Origin: Treponema sp.
Lineage (GTDB): Bacteria; Spirochaetota; Spirochaetia; Treponematales; Breznakiellaceae
Assembly: GCA_031266075.1 (NCBI GenBank)
Contig: JAISBS010000042.1
Coordinates: forward strand, 1 to 51,616
Direction of reading: 5' to 3'
DNA: 51,616 bases
Of the stretch, positions 30,809 to 51,254 are shown piece by piece (position 1 is the stretch's first letter; every line of letters starts with the position of its first letter). The notes beneath the pieces were generated by a model. It saw nothing but the letters and a program-made list of their open reading frames with translations. It did not search any database and was not told where the DNA came from. A program made the position numbers and the translations under genes.

Positions 30809-30842
30809 GATTTGTTCAAAAACTGAAGCTTTTAAACAAATC
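30809..30842 (+). repeat. Hairpin with arms GATTTGTT / AACAAATC
   Basis: Arms at 30809-30816 and 30835-30842. The interior (CAAAAACTGAAGCTTTTA) recalls the perfect palindrome at 51225-51254 in degenerate form. Confidence 0.45.
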
Positions 30843-37170: not shown

Positions 37171-37813
37171 ATACCAGCCCCAGCCCCTCGGGGGAACAAA
37201 GCAGTTCTCCCGTATCAATTGAAAAAGCAGCCGTTTTCCCCCGGCGCCGCAGTTCCACCCCCTCCGGTGCGGCCAGGGGCCTTCCCGCGCCGTCGGTAAA
37301 GGCAAGCTCCGTGGCGCCGGGAGCGGAAAAGCTCAAGGATACCCGGTAGGTCCGGGAAATTTCCCGGACCAGGGCCAGCAGTTCCGGGTCGGCGTCTGGT
37401 ACGCCGGGGTAGAGGATCAGGGTCAGCTGTTTTTTCCCCTCCGCCTCGGTGAAAGAAGCGCCCTGCCCCGTCCCGGCAAGGAAGGGGATCAGGGCCCCGG
37501 TATGATCAAAGGCCAGCCTTACCCGGTTTATGATATCCGCGCCGTCATTTTTTGACGAAAAGGAAACCATGCGCAGGCCCGGCAGCCGTTCCATGGTTCG
37601 TTCAAAATCCGCCCGCCCGGCGGGAATGGTCTGCCAGCGTTCGTTGCCGTCAAGCCTTCCCAGGGATTCGGCCATTTTGGATACCCGGTACTCAAGGTTC
37701 ATGACGCCTGAACCATTCTTCCGAATGCTGAGGTCTGCCTGGAGGCCGATGCAGGAGCCCAGGGTAAAAACACTGATGAGGGAGAGAAGCGCCGCAAAAC
37801 GAAAATGGGTCAT
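37157..37813 (-). CDS. Lipoprotein of unknown function
   Basis: The start at 37813 is chosen because AAGGA lies eight bases upstream and gives a clean lipoprotein signal (MTHFRFAALLSLISVFTLGSC, Cys21); the in-frame codon at 37843 overlaps the preceding gene. The mature domain of about 197 residues is beta-rich (DLSIRKNGSGVMNLEYRVSK, MVSFSSKNDGADIINRVRLA, KKQLTLILYPGVPDADPELL). It resembles the spirochaete lipoproteins with an immunoglobulin-like or LolA-like look, but I cannot name a family. It is cotranscribed with the DUF503 gene 26 bases upstream. Confidence 0.8.
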   Translation of the reverse strand: MTHFRFAALLSLISVFTLGSCIGLQADLSIRKNGSGVMNLEYRVSKMAESLGRLDGNERWQTIPAGRADFERTMERLPGLRMVSFSSKNDGADIINRVRLAFDHTGALIPFLAGTGQGASFTEAEGKKQLTLILYPGVPDADPELLALVREISRTYRVSLSFSAPGATELAFTDGAGRPLAAPEGVELRRRGKTAAFSIDTGELLCSPEGLGLVFSWL

Positions 37814-45321: not shown

Positions 45322-45756
45322 ATGAGGATTACAACACGGGGGCGTTATGCGCTCCGGGCGTCGCTGGCTCTGGCAAAACTGGGCACGGACGGGGAGCCCG
45401 TTTCCATAAATATCCTTGCGGAAGAAGAAAACATCTCCTCTGTTTTTCTGGAACAGATTTTTTTCAAACTGCGGAAGGCGGGGATTGTTTCCTCGGTCCG
45501 CGGGCCGGGGGGGGGCTTTTGCTTCGCCCGGTCTCTGGAAACGCTGACGGTCAAGGAGATTTTGGACGCCGCAGGGGAAGATTTAAGCGTCAGCCCCTGC
45601 GACAAGCATCATGAAGACTGCGACCGGATCAGCGGCTGTTTGAGCCACCGGGTGTGGATGGAAATGACCGGGCTGGTCAACAATTATTTACGGAACCTGA
45701 CCCTGGCGACCATTTTGGAAAAGAACGAATTTGCCGCAGAACAAGAAGTTTCCTGA
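45322..45756 (+). CDS. Rrf2/IscR-family iron-sulfur transcription regulator
   Basis: The 144-residue protein has an N-terminal winged helix (MRITTRGRYALRASLALAKL, SVFLEQIFFKLRKAGIVSSV, GPGGGF). It is followed by the cluster-binding loop CDKHHEDCDRISGCLSHRVW, in which three Cys (C-x6-C-x5-C) and a His two residues later match the IscR ligand pattern. IscR-type proteins sense iron-sulfur status. AAGGGGG lies five bases before the ATG. The operator at 45253 fits self-control. The next gene starts inside its 3' end (26-base overlap). No isc or suf genes are linked, so it is called IscR-like, not IscR. Confidence 0.9.
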   Translation: MRITTRGRYALRASLALAKLGTDGEPVSINILAEEENISSVFLEQIFFKLRKAGIVSSVRGPGGGFCFARSLETLTVKEILDAAGEDLSVSPCDKHHEDCDRISGCLSHRVWMEMTGLVNNYLRNLTLATILEKNEFAAEQEVS

Positions 45757-47236
45757 CAAAGCGGACGCCCGCAGCTACCGGATACTGACCGGGGCCCTCA
45801 AAAAACGCCGCCGGGGAGCCACCGTGGCGGATGTCGCGGCGGCCACCGCCCTGCCCCTGGCCGTCATCCGGGAACAGCTTCCCCGGGCCGCGGACGAATA
45901 TTCCGCCCGCCTTGAGGTAACCGAATCCGGGGAAATCCGCTATTCCTTCCCCCGGGGCTTTGTCAGCCGCTACCGGGGCTTCCGGGCAGGCCTGCGGAAT
46001 TTTTTTGAACACGCCGGGCATCTGGCCAGGGCTTTTTTCGCCGGGCTTTTCAAGGTCTGGATCATGGTGATGCTGGTAGGCTACTTCGCGCTGTTTATGC
46101 TGCTTGCCCTGGCCAGCCTCTTTATCGCCGTGGCGGGCCGGTCATCAAACTCAGGCAGCCGGGGCCGCAGTTCCGGCGGCGGCGTTTTTCTGGGCCCCCA
46201 TATCTTCGACCTGATCTTTCGGATCTGGTTTTATTCGGAACTGACCAAATCCCCGGACTCCCGGCAGCGCTACGGCGGCCAGAACGCCGGGCGGCCCAAA
46301 GGCCGGCCCCTGCACCGGGCGATTTTTTCCTTTGTCTTCGGCGACGGGGATCCCAACCGGGACTGGGCGGCACTGGAAAAAAAGGCCTTTATCGCCTGCG
46401 TCCAGGCCCGCCGGGGGGTCATTTCCCTGCCCGAATATATGGCCCTGAGCGGCCTGGAGCCGGAAGCGGCGGAGCGGGAACTGATGGCCCGGTGTTTTGA
46501 ATTCGGCGGCTCCCCGGAGGCCACCGAAGCGGGAACCATCGTGTACCGTTTTGACGAACTCCTCCTCCGCTCGGATCAGGGCGACCGCTCTTTCCCGGAA
46601 GTTTCCGCCCCCATCCGGCGGCTGCGGCAGTTTTCCTCCAACAAAAAAAACATGAACGCCTGGTTCGGCGTTATCAACACGGTGAACCTGGCCTTTGGCA
46701 GCTATTTCCTTTTTAACGCCATGAACACCGGGGCCATTCTGACCGAAGCCCATTTCCAGGCCAGTTCTTACCTGTACGCCGTGGTCTGGCATTTTTTCAC
46801 CCTCGCCGCTTCTAACCCCCTGCCCCTGATAGGCGTTGGGCTGGGGCTGGTTCCGCTGGTGTTTTCCCTGCTGTTCTGGCTCATCCCCGGCCTCCGCTAT
46901 CTGTTTGAAAACCGGGAAAATGAAAAAATCAAGCTGAACAACCTGAAAAAAACCGGCTTTGCCCATATCTGGTCAAACCCTCTGGGAGTCCGGGAAAACG
47001 ACATTGACAGTCCCGTGGCAGAATGCCGCCCCCGGAACATGGCCGCCGCCCGGGACCGGATTATCAAGGACATGGGGGCCGTGGCTGTCCCCGATGTGGA
47101 GCTTGACGGGCGGGGCAATACGGTCTACCTCTTCCGGGAACTCCGGCGGGAAAAAGAGGCGCTGGACGCATACCGGGCCGCCGTCCGGCCCGAAGCCTCC
47201 GCACTGGGAAAAACCGTGTTTGACAGCGATTCCTGA
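45731..47236 (+). CDS. Membrane protein with winged-helix-like cytoplasmic parts, unknown family
   Basis: The 501-residue protein starts with TTG inside the end of the Rrf2 gene, so it is probably translated by coupling. Its N-terminal ~75 residues look like a small helical DNA-binding-type fold (ILTGALKKRRRGATVADVAA, ATALPLAVIREQL). A membrane hairpin follows at about 105-137, then a long cytoplasmic-looking region (about 200-300) with a second winged-helix-like pattern (KAFIACVQARRGVISLPEYM, LSGLEPEAAERELMARC), two more membrane segments near 310-335 and 355-385, and a C-terminal charged domain. I recognise no family. Its link to an iron-sulfur-sensing regulator suggests redox or stress control, by inference only. 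Confidence 0.75.
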   Translation: MPQNKKFPDKADARSYRILTGALKKRRRGATVADVAAATALPLAVIREQLPRAADEYSARLEVTESGEIRYSFPRGFVSRYRGFRAGLRNFFEHAGHLARAFFAGLFKVWIMVMLVGYFALFMLLALASLFIAVAGRSSNSGSRGRSSGGGVFLGPHIFDLIFRIWFYSELTKSPDSRQRYGGQNAGRPKGRPLHRAIFSFVFGDGDPNRDWAALEKKAFIACVQARRGVISLPEYMALSGLEPEAAERELMARCFEFGGSPEATEAGTIVYRFDELLLRSDQGDRSFPEVSAPIRRLRQFSSNKKNMNAWFGVINTVNLAFGSYFLFNAMNTGAILTEAHFQASSYLYAVVWHFFTLAASNPLPLIGVGLGLVPLVFSLLFWLIPGLRYLFENRENEKIKLNNLKKTGFAHIWSNPLGVRENDIDSPVAECRPRNMAAARDRIIKDMGAVAVPDVELDGRGNTVYLFRELRREKEALDAYRAAVRPEASALGKTVFDSDS

Positions 47237-48671: not shown

Positions 48672-51194
48672 TCATTTCGTTGCATACAGGAAATTCTCCA
48701 TGGTTTGAAGAATCGTGTCCAAATCGCCGAAGCAGGTTTTTGTTTTGGGCAGGGAGCGGAGGAAGAAGCCGCCGTAGCGTTTGCGGAGGAGCCGCCCGTC
48801 CAGAACAGCCACCACCCCATGATCGCTGGAACGGCGCATGAGTCTGCCGAAGCCCTGTTTGAACTTCATCACCGATTCGGGGAGGGACAGTTCCATAAAG
48901 GGATTGCCGCCCCGCTGTTCCAGGGCCTCCCGGCGGGCCTCAAAGACCGGATCGTTGGGAGTTCGGAAGGGCAGGCGGCAGAGGATCACCAGCCGGAGGG
49001 TGTCCCCCGGCGCGTCCACCCCTTCCCAGAAAGAATCAGTGGCAAAGAGGACGCTGCTTTCGTCGGCGAGAAAGGTCTGGAGCAGCCGGGTCCGGTCGTC
49101 GTCCCCCTGTTTGAGACAGCGGATGCCCAGGGCCGCCAGTTCCGGCTGGGCGGCGTTGTAGGCGCTCCGCAGGGACTGGTAGGAGGTAAAAAGGATCAGG
49201 GCGGAGCCCCCGGACACGGCGGCAAGCCGGGCCGCGGCCTGATTCACAAAGGGCTGGTAGTCCGCTTCCTCCGGCAGGGGCGCATCGGCGGGAACCGCCA
49301 AAAGCACCGAGGCGGCGTAGGGAAAGGGACTGGGAAAACGCCCGGTCAAAATCTCCCGCCCGCCGGCCACATTCAGGCCGCAGCGGCCCGCCCAGTAGTC
49401 AAAGGATCCCGGCTCTTCGCCGCCGTCCTCCCCGGTTTCACCGGCATAGCGGCCCGGCTCCGCTGTCGTCAGGGTTGCGGAAAGACAAACCACCGTTTTG
49501 TTCGGTTCAAAAAGGGCCTCCCTGAGGCCGGGGGCTACATCCACGGGGGTTACGTGAAACACCGCATAGGGTTCCCGCCCGGCGCTCTGGCGTTTTTCCA
49601 GCCACATCACCTCCTGGGGCCGTTCCCGGTATTCAACAAAGGACGCGCAGATTTCGCCGATGGTTTCCAGCCGCCGCAGAACCGGCTTGATCTCCCAAAC
49701 CGCGGCGTTGTCTTCATCTTTGGCGCCGAGGGCTTCAAGCAGGTTCCGCACCAGTTCCGTCAGGACGAGGATTTTTTTCCGCAGATCCTTGAGCCCCGGA
49801 AAAAGGACACCCTCCGCATCCGCCCGCCGGGGGCAGAGCCGGAACACCCCTTCGCCGCCGCAGAGTTCCCCGGCGCATTGATCCAGCGCGTCCGCGGCTT
49901 TCCGGATCCGCTCAATGGCCGCGGCGGCATCGTCGATTTTGTCGTCCGCGCCGGGGACAAGAGCCGCCAGACGAAGCAGCAGCCCCTGACGCTGGGCCCG
50001 CCGCCGCCGGTAGAGCCGCCCGAGCTGGCGGTAAATCCCCGGCCTGCTCCACTCATCGGAAAAGAAGGAAGTCGCCGCTCCCTCCATCGTATGGGCCTCG
50101 TCGATGATCACCCGGGTAAAGGGCGGCAGAACCACGGTGTTGTCATAGCCCGCCCCTTTCCGCCGGGCCGCCAGGTCCGCAAAGAGCAGATGGTGGTTTA
50201 CCACCAGAATCCGGGCATCCGCCGCCTCCCGCCGGAGGGTAAGGACAAAACAGCGTTCCCGCTCGGGGCAGCGCATCCCCATGCAGAGATCCGCCTCGGA
50301 ACAGACCCGGGACCAGACCGTATCGGCGGGGACAAACGAAAGATCCGGGCGGCTGCCGCTTTGGGTAGCCTCCGCCCAGTTGCTGATACGGGCCAGTTCC
50401 TCCTGTTCCGCATCCTCCAGATCCGGCTCCCGGAGAGCGTCGCCAAGCCGGCGGCGGCAGAGGTAATTGCCCCGGCCTTTCATCAAAAGGGCCTTGATCT
50501 TTTTGTGCAGGGCCCCTGTTACCAGGGGGATATCCTTCTCAAAAAGCTGCTGCTGGAGGGTGATAGTGGCGGTAGAAATGACGATCCGCTCGTTGTTGGC
50601 CAGCGCGTAGTGGATTGCGGGCAGCAGGTAGGCGAAAGATTTCCCTACCCCCGTCCCCGCCTCCGCGGCCACGAGGGCGTCTTCGTTAAAACCACGGATA
50701 ACCAGTTCCATCAGGTCGATCTGGGCCTGCCGCGGTTCGTAGGAGGGCAGCCGCCCGGCAACGGTTCCGCCCTCCCGGAGGGCCTCGGTAATCGCCCCGG
50801 CATCGAGGGCCTTCCGTTTCCGCCGCCTGACCGGTTCGGCCACCACGTAGACATTTTCCACCAGGTTGTCAACAATGTAGGCCCCGGTTCCCCCCTCCGC
50901 GGCCCGGCCCGCGATAACGAGGTCGTTGTCGCTGGGGGTCAAAAAGCCCGAGGGGTGGTTGTGGATAAGTACGTCCGGCAATTCCTCATCCTGTCCCGCC
51001 ACCGGGCCGTCCTCCGATCCGGCGCCCAGAGCCAAAACCGAGTCCTCGTTTCCCCGGGCCCGCACCCGTATCCGGGCCACAAGACCCTTATCGTCAAGGC
51101 CGCCCAAGGCAAAGACCTCGTTCCCCCCGGCGTCCTTTATTTCCGCCCTGAGCCGGATGATGCACTGTTCCGTAAACCGTTTTTCCGCCCGCAC
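48672..51194 (-). CDS. DinG-family helicase fused to an N-terminal JAMM/RadC-like domain
   Basis: The 840-residue protein is a fusion. Residues 1-~115 form a JAMM metallopeptidase-like (RadC/MPN) domain with the full motif: Glu26, His78-x-His80 (LIHNHPSG), Ser88 and Asp91 in the canonical spacing. Residues ~150-840 form a DinG/XPD-type SF2 helicase: Q-like YEPRQAQIDLM, Walker A EAGTGVGKS (about 178-186), cluster Cys residues at about 246, 298, 304, 309 and 315, VVNHHLLFADL, the DEAH box (about 365-368), then SATL, ILFTSYQSLR, FATDSFWEGVDAPGD and the late helicase motif QGFGRLMRR. DinG helicases unwind 5'-3' and resolve R-loops. The GTG start has GAGGA seven bases upstream. Confidence 0.9.
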   Translation of the reverse strand: MRAEKRFTEQCIIRLRAEIKDAGGNEVFALGGLDDKGLVARIRVRARGNEDSVLALGAGSEDGPVAGQDEELPDVLIHNHPSGFLTPSDNDLVIAGRAAEGGTGAYIVDNLVENVYVVAEPVRRRKRKALDAGAITEALREGGTVAGRLPSYEPRQAQIDLMELVIRGFNEDALVAAEAGTGVGKSFAYLLPAIHYALANNERIVISTATITLQQQLFEKDIPLVTGALHKKIKALLMKGRGNYLCRRRLGDALREPDLEDAEQEELARISNWAEATQSGSRPDLSFVPADTVWSRVCSEADLCMGMRCPERERCFVLTLRREAADARILVVNHHLLFADLAARRKGAGYDNTVVLPPFTRVIIDEAHTMEGAATSFFSDEWSRPGIYRQLGRLYRRRRAQRQGLLLRLAALVPGADDKIDDAAAAIERIRKAADALDQCAGELCGGEGVFRLCPRRADAEGVLFPGLKDLRKKILVLTELVRNLLEALGAKDEDNAAVWEIKPVLRRLETIGEICASFVEYRERPQEVMWLEKRQSAGREPYAVFHVTPVDVAPGLREALFEPNKTVVCLSATLTTAEPGRYAGETGEDGGEEPGSFDYWAGRCGLNVAGGREILTGRFPSPFPYAASVLLAVPADAPLPEEADYQPFVNQAAARLAAVSGGSALILFTSYQSLRSAYNAAQPELAALGIRCLKQGDDDRTRLLQTFLADESSVLFATDSFWEGVDAPGDTLRLVILCRLPFRTPNDPVFEARREALEQRGGNPFMELSLPESVMKFKQGFGRLMRRSSDHGVVAVLDGRLLRKRYGGFFLRSLPKTKTCFGDLDTILQTMENFLYATK

Positions 51195-51224: not shown

Positions 51225-51254
51225 GTTGTTCAGAAACTGCAGTTTCTGAACAAC
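51225..51254. repeat. Perfect 30-base palindrome upstream of the DinG fusion gene
   Basis: GTTGTTCAGAAACTG is followed at once by its reverse complement CAGTTTCTGAACAAC. It lies about 30 bases before the GTG start, over the probable promoter. It may be an operator or a member of the hairpin family (compare 30809-30842). Confidence 0.75.

Follow-up and report, generated by a model that had tools for sequence, protein, structure and literature searches.

Which reaction, if any, takes place at a JAB/JAMM site that is tethered to a DNA helicase? The question is raised by the JAB-dinG gene ('RadC-like DinG', with known orthologues) at positions 48672..51194, minus strand, of a Treponema sp. contig whose 51,616 nucleotides constitute the window analysed here. 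The gene encodes 840 amino acid residues, starts with a GTG codon, with GAGGAA just 5' of it, and ends with TGA (48672-48674); the window contains no tRNA and gave no match in an Rfam scan. Three parts, all encoded on the minus strand, may be distinguished in the protein: an N-terminal JAB/JAMM domain (residues 5-120; 50835..51182), delimited by the AlphaFold model and by Foldseek and VIA matches; a basic linker falling between the modelled domains (residues 121-140; 50775..50834); and a DinG/YoaA/XPD-type superfamily 2 helicase, recognised by profiles, model and Foldseek (residues 141-837; 48684..50774). The N-terminal domain contains Glu26 (51117..51119), the general-base glutamate of the JAMM site, His78-Asn79-His80 (50955..50963) with the predicted zinc ligands, Ser88 of the JAMM motif (50931..50933) and Asp91 (50922..50924), the predicted third zinc ligand, at exactly the E-x(n)-H-x-H-x7-S-x2-D spacing that the first-pass annotation had read. 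Also as read there, the helicase has a Walker A motif (GTGVGKS, residues 180-186; 50637..50657), a DEAH box (residues 365-368; 50091..50102) and four Fe-S cluster cysteines (Cys246, Cys304, Cys309 and Cys315; 50250..50459), of which Cys309 and Cys315 are kept in 81/81 aligned sequences and Cys246 and Cys304 in 80/81; the alignment columns of helicase motif VI (QGFGRLMR; 48834..48857) are mostly invariant. The presence of both domains in one chain, part of the same earlier claim, is confirmed by the open reading frame, profiles, fold models and orthologues.

The fusion is common and already in print (PMC5512222; PMC11981726), an outcome that the first-pass annotation had itself named as counting against its claim. 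RadC-DinG fusions were noted earlier (PMC5512222), and the 'RadC-like DinG' subgroup was named in a 2025 review, according to which no research had been conducted on it (Cheng, 2025; PMC11981726, section 3.8); in the literature we found no biochemistry or other experiment on any member. Cheng describes a DinG helicase with MD1/MD2, Arch and a CCCC Fe-S site, together with a RadC-like domain with E, H, H and D, the helicase being YoaA-like and the genome lacking HolC (PMC11981726). The window protein has the DinG helicase with its Fe-S cysteines and an N-terminal domain with E, H, H and D; its gene is an ordinary member of the subgroup, to which this copy adds nothing unusual.

RadC-like DinG is widespread. 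In a protein search, 50 of 59 related genomes had a match to DinG, most of them with JAB, and a query with the JAB domain only matched 138/296 Spirochaetota genomes, stand-alone RadC being among the matches. Among 84,980 species genomes scanned, 485 relatives of the domain were confirmed, and the best 80 of these 485 were all JAB-DinG fusions, hosted by Spirochaetota, Geobacterales, Acidobacteriota, Dadabacteria, Sumerlaeota, Hydrogenedentes, KSB1 and others. Several of the genomes used in the analysis are incomplete MAGs. The fusion is near-universal in the order Geobacterales (57/58 sampled genomes, four of them with the fusion split over fragments), common in Spirochaetota and present in 8/80 Acidobacteriota genomes; viral contigs searched with the JAB domain gave no relative. 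Since it is conserved in several phyla, the fusion is not a product of chance. Four loci with open reading frames of 994-1171 residues (L027, L028, L034 and L035) were candidates for extra N-terminal domains and were rejected by inspection, their leading residues being low-complexity and Arg/Gly/Pro-rich, in a high-GC stop-free frame before an internal methionine.

What kind of domain is joined to the helicase? The helicase itself matched Pfam Helicase_C_2 (1.8e-43) and the NCBIfam YoaA/DinG models (2.6e-156), the best of which was YoaA, at 521.9 bits and below its equivalog cut-off of 680, followed by DinG models, with the DinG equivalog at 341.4 against a cut-off of 598. On the window protein, the RadC profile PF04002 scored 20.0 bits, just under its cut-off of 22.1, and TIGR00608 15.1 bits, below its cut-off of 133.85; PF04002 matched 24/24 members of an alignment of the window protein's domain and 23 relatives (A1; best 2.7e-12), and many JAB-DinG relatives exceed its cut-off narrowly. 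Structure prediction, proposed as a check in the first-pass annotation, agreed with both assignments. AlphaFold modelled the JAB domain alone with a pLDDT of 82.8 and the full-length protein with 89.1 (pTM 0.85), the best Foldseek match of the latter being DinG with ssDNA (6fwr, 5e-38). The JAB model consists of a helix, two strands, the strand bearing HNH, a helix and two strands (alpha-beta-beta-beta-alpha-beta-beta), and its top Foldseek matches in the PDB were solved JAMM structures and RadC: AfJAMM (1oi0), RadC (2qlc), Rpn11, CSN5, AMSH-type proteins and PfJAMM1. VIA-align also placed AfJAMM 1oi0 first (Z 9.9, rmsd 2.7, 93 residues aligned); RadC 2qlc, rank 2 in Foldseek, was not among the best 50 VIA matches. 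As modelled, the N-terminal domain has the JAB fold.

Those matches bear on a reading that we consider rather unlikely, in which JAB acts as a peptidase or isopeptidase and clears proteins, among them DNA-protein crosslinks or a modified protein of the fork, in front of the helicase or in its wake. In its favour, canonical JAMM proteins are the top structural matches, all five JAMM residues are intact, and the DALI comparison by Cheng likewise pointed to metalloproteases, with resemblance to PfJAMM1 and CsRpn11 (PMC11981726). Against it, inspection of recurrent neighbour clusters, with profiles run for the RelA/SpoT gene and a few window genes, revealed no recognisable ubiquitin-like or E1/E2 gene, and the literature on DNA-protein crosslinks with DinG yielded no link to RadC-like DinG. 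A further point against it is that the known JAMMs do not act as general proteases, their cuts falling behind a Ubl tail. A crosslink protease, which is how the first-pass annotation had understood the fusion, is one form of this alternative, possible and unsupported: nothing was found that favours removal of DNA-bound protein over nucleic-acid processing.

Whether the site is active can be approached through its conservation. Glu26, His78, His80, Ser88 and Asp91, together with Gly48, Asn79 and Pro81, are invariant in 191 loci (173 distinct in the domain), conservation of HNHP being partly a selection effect, since 80 loci (genome_contigs) were chosen with the HNHP pattern; the Spirochaetota loci came from a protein alignment and are free of this bias. 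The motif was also present in all 19 further domains, whose genomes had been retrieved by full-length protein rather than by motif. Each copy that still holds the domain has all five catalytic residues intact. Judged from this sequence conservation, catalysis by the fused JAB domain is very likely, and the domain is predicted to bind zinc. The same pattern weighs on the idea, improbable to us, of a regulatory or sensory domain that binds a metal, a nucleotide or the tail of a protein without turnover: changes of Glu26 or Ser88 would be expected somewhere if the domain were merely structural or sensory, and there are none in the 191 loci.

The domain is absent from some relatives. At seven Treponematales loci with an intact helicase, JAB sequence is undetectable upstream; an eighth (L114, on contig C3 of G239) carries a decayed remnant whose metal site (HNH and Glu) is gone. 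In the helicase tree, the JAB-less or decayed loci nest within JAB-bearing clades, a placement that favours JAB loss, with at least four changes by parsimony, a count which, even with the tree, cannot by itself separate loss from gain. The JAB domain is dispensable to the helicase, since several lineages have dropped it and the helicase stays intact where it is absent; this independent absence indicates that the domain is unneeded for unwinding, which would suit a sensor. L114, alone among the retained domains in having a degraded site, is decayed throughout, as expected if catalysis is the purpose of the domain; its remnant offers a snapshot of domain loss. Two further loci first counted as JAB-less were rejected as such, one (L023) having a frameshift, with JAB present in a different reading frame of that stretch, and the other (L048) lying at a contig edge, with its JAB part recorded as L049.

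The neighbourhood adds one regular feature. No neighbour conserved across phyla was seen; in Treponematales, a gene with RelA/SpoT and TPR domains lies upstream of dinG and co-directional with it at 11 loci in two families (L006, L013, L020, L022, L024, L039, L044, L153, L163, L192 and L198), and a tRNA-Glu(UUC) gene stands between the two, in the same direction, at 9/9 loci scanned. This order is not visible in the window because the contig ends there. The conserved RelA/SpoT-TPR neighbour could hint at signalling and, with it, at a sensor; at L044 the JAB domain has been lost and the RelA/SpoT neighbour kept. Elsewhere in the window, positions 45731-47236 encode a 501-residue membrane-like protein with no Pfam match, homologues of which lie downstream of dinG, on the opposite strand, at 13 related loci.

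A perfect 30-base palindrome, GTTGTTCAGAAACTGCAGTTTCTGAACAAC (51225..51254, unstranded), had been placed over the promoter of the gene in the first-pass annotation. The palindrome is there; its reading as a promoter element, or as a dinG operator, was rejected, since it is a copy of a dispersed repeat, outside the dinG system, and the congener (L002) has no copy upstream of its dinG. With at most two mismatches allowed, this genome has copies at 10 places, against 0 for the reversed control, and the congener has 21 places with a related palindrome pattern. The repeats, palindromes of 30-36 bp that share the core GTTCAGAAACTnnAGTTTCTGAAC, form a family in this genus. They often lie outside long open reading frames, at times two or three close together; further copies lie on contigs C22, C34, C50, C54, C66, C69, C74, C75 and C116 of this genome (G000; L201-L209) and in the congener (L211-L218), and a diverged one at 30814-30837 of the window. 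A second perfect palindrome, of 22 bases (GGTCCGGGAAATTTCCCGGACC), was observed at 37349-37370.

It has long been asked whether JAB domains of the RadC type act as nucleases, as peptidases or as neither, a question on which RadC-like DinG could bear directly. The best Pfam sequence match of the domain in the sampled relatives is RadC, and in a profile comparison the glutamate of the RadC 'KEHF' motif aligns with Glu26. The VHPREVF (HPRE) and LDH signatures are found in 20/20 stand-alone RadC proteins of the same order and in 0/191 JAB-DinG proteins. An ordinary RadC is encoded alongside the fusion in nearly all Treponematales genomes examined (here at G000:C111:10283-10639), in genomes of the order Geobacterales and in 8/10 genomes of several other groups. 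Because the signatures are absent and ordinary RadC coexists with the fusion, the fused domain is, by sequence, a separate JAB subfamily and no substitute for RadC.

These comparisons also touch a possibility that we entertain tentatively: the domain may hydrolyse nucleic acids, as a nuclease or otherwise, and so do the job that the DnaQ exonuclease does in ExoDinG or the endonuclease in EndoDinG. Its position is N-terminal like that of the nuclease domains of other DinGs, an argument already in print (PMC5512222), its sequence profile is nearest to RadC, and a nuclease hypothesis has been published for RadC-type JABs (PMC5512222; PMC11981726; PMC3482391). Weighing on the other side are the missing HPRE and LDH signatures of RadC, the lack of any nuclease fold among the PDB matches listed for the JAB model (Foldseek and VIA), and, in the literature found, the absence of any JAB domain with demonstrated nuclease activity. 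Published opinion is divided: the Aravind group favours a nuclease, Cheng a metalloprotease-like fold (PMC11981726).

One genome brings RadC and DinG together. On contig C59 of G405 (L252:133-1501, L259), uppP, radC and dinG follow one another, the gene before radC being the usual neighbour, which we take to be uppP from reading its sequence; radC is complete, lies 56 bp upstream of a dinG without JAB, on the same strand, and is the sole PF04002 match of the genome. The role of RadC has reportedly been disputed since 'RadC, a misleading name?', and RadC is said to be an orphan. If real, G405, which is one MAG and might be misassembled, possibly represents a natural swap of the fused JAB domain for stand-alone RadC, tying RadC to DinG. 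Adjacency of radC and dinG as a general rule was rejected (1/76 genomes of the family of G405), no such junction being found in the other 75 genomes; in many Geobacteraceae, radC lies ~11-18 kb from dinG. That RadC generally partners DinG-type helicases, with JAB-DinG as the Rosetta stone and the site processing whatever substrate the helicase exposes, be it a protein adduct or nucleic acid, is an idea that we hold to be very doubtful; if it were true, RadC would have naturally taken the place of the fused domain in G405.

What, then, does the tethered site do? The catalytic residues are strictly conserved and the domain is repeatedly absent as a whole; the two together lead to the prediction that JAB is an enzyme and that its substrate arises as DinG unwinds DNA. 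RadC-like DinG is probably an Fe-S helicase with a catalytically active JAB zinc hydrolase, acting on a substrate somewhat likelier to be nucleic-acid-linked than protein. The 5'-3' Fe-S helicase, of DinG/YoaA/XPD type, would open a DNA structure such as an R-loop, a flap or a stalled fork; unwinding would bring the tethered JAB site to a substrate at the opened DNA, and the JAB domain would hydrolyse it there. A nucleic-acid-linked substrate seems slightly more likely than protein by analogy, because other DinGs carry exo- or endonuclease domains at the position of JAB. To our knowledge, all JAMM enzymes with proven chemistry are peptidases, and the DALI comparison by Cheng gave no nuclease similarity (PMC11981726), so that this preference is drawn entirely from context.

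Among known systems, the closest is RadC-like DinG itself, exemplified by Desulfuromonas soudanensis, with the same N-terminal E/H/H/D domain and Fe-S DinG/YoaA-like helicase; the window protein differs in its Treponematales host, and it has an insertion of ~12 residues before HNH, lacking in most relatives and modelled with low confidence (residues 57-69). Stand-alone RadC (PF04002) shares with the fused domain the HNHPSG-x3-PS-x2-D core, the JAMM glutamate and the JAB fold, whereas VHPREVF and LDH are absent from the fused domain, and both occur in the same genomes. Canonical JAMM/MPN+ proteins (AfJAMM 1oi0, PfJAMM1 5lda, Rpn11, CSN5 and AMSH) share the fold and the full E-HxH-S-D site, but have HSH or HTH in place of HNH; here, by contrast, a helicase is fused to the domain and no ubiquitin-like partner was recognised nearby. 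E. coli YoaA and DinG, ExoDinG (S. aureus) and EndoDinG share the helicase core and the Fe-S cysteines, the window protein scoring under the equivalog cut-offs of YoaA and E. coli-type DinG; ExoDinG and EndoDinG also carry an N-terminal catalytic domain, which is DnaQ or an endonuclease in them and JAB here.
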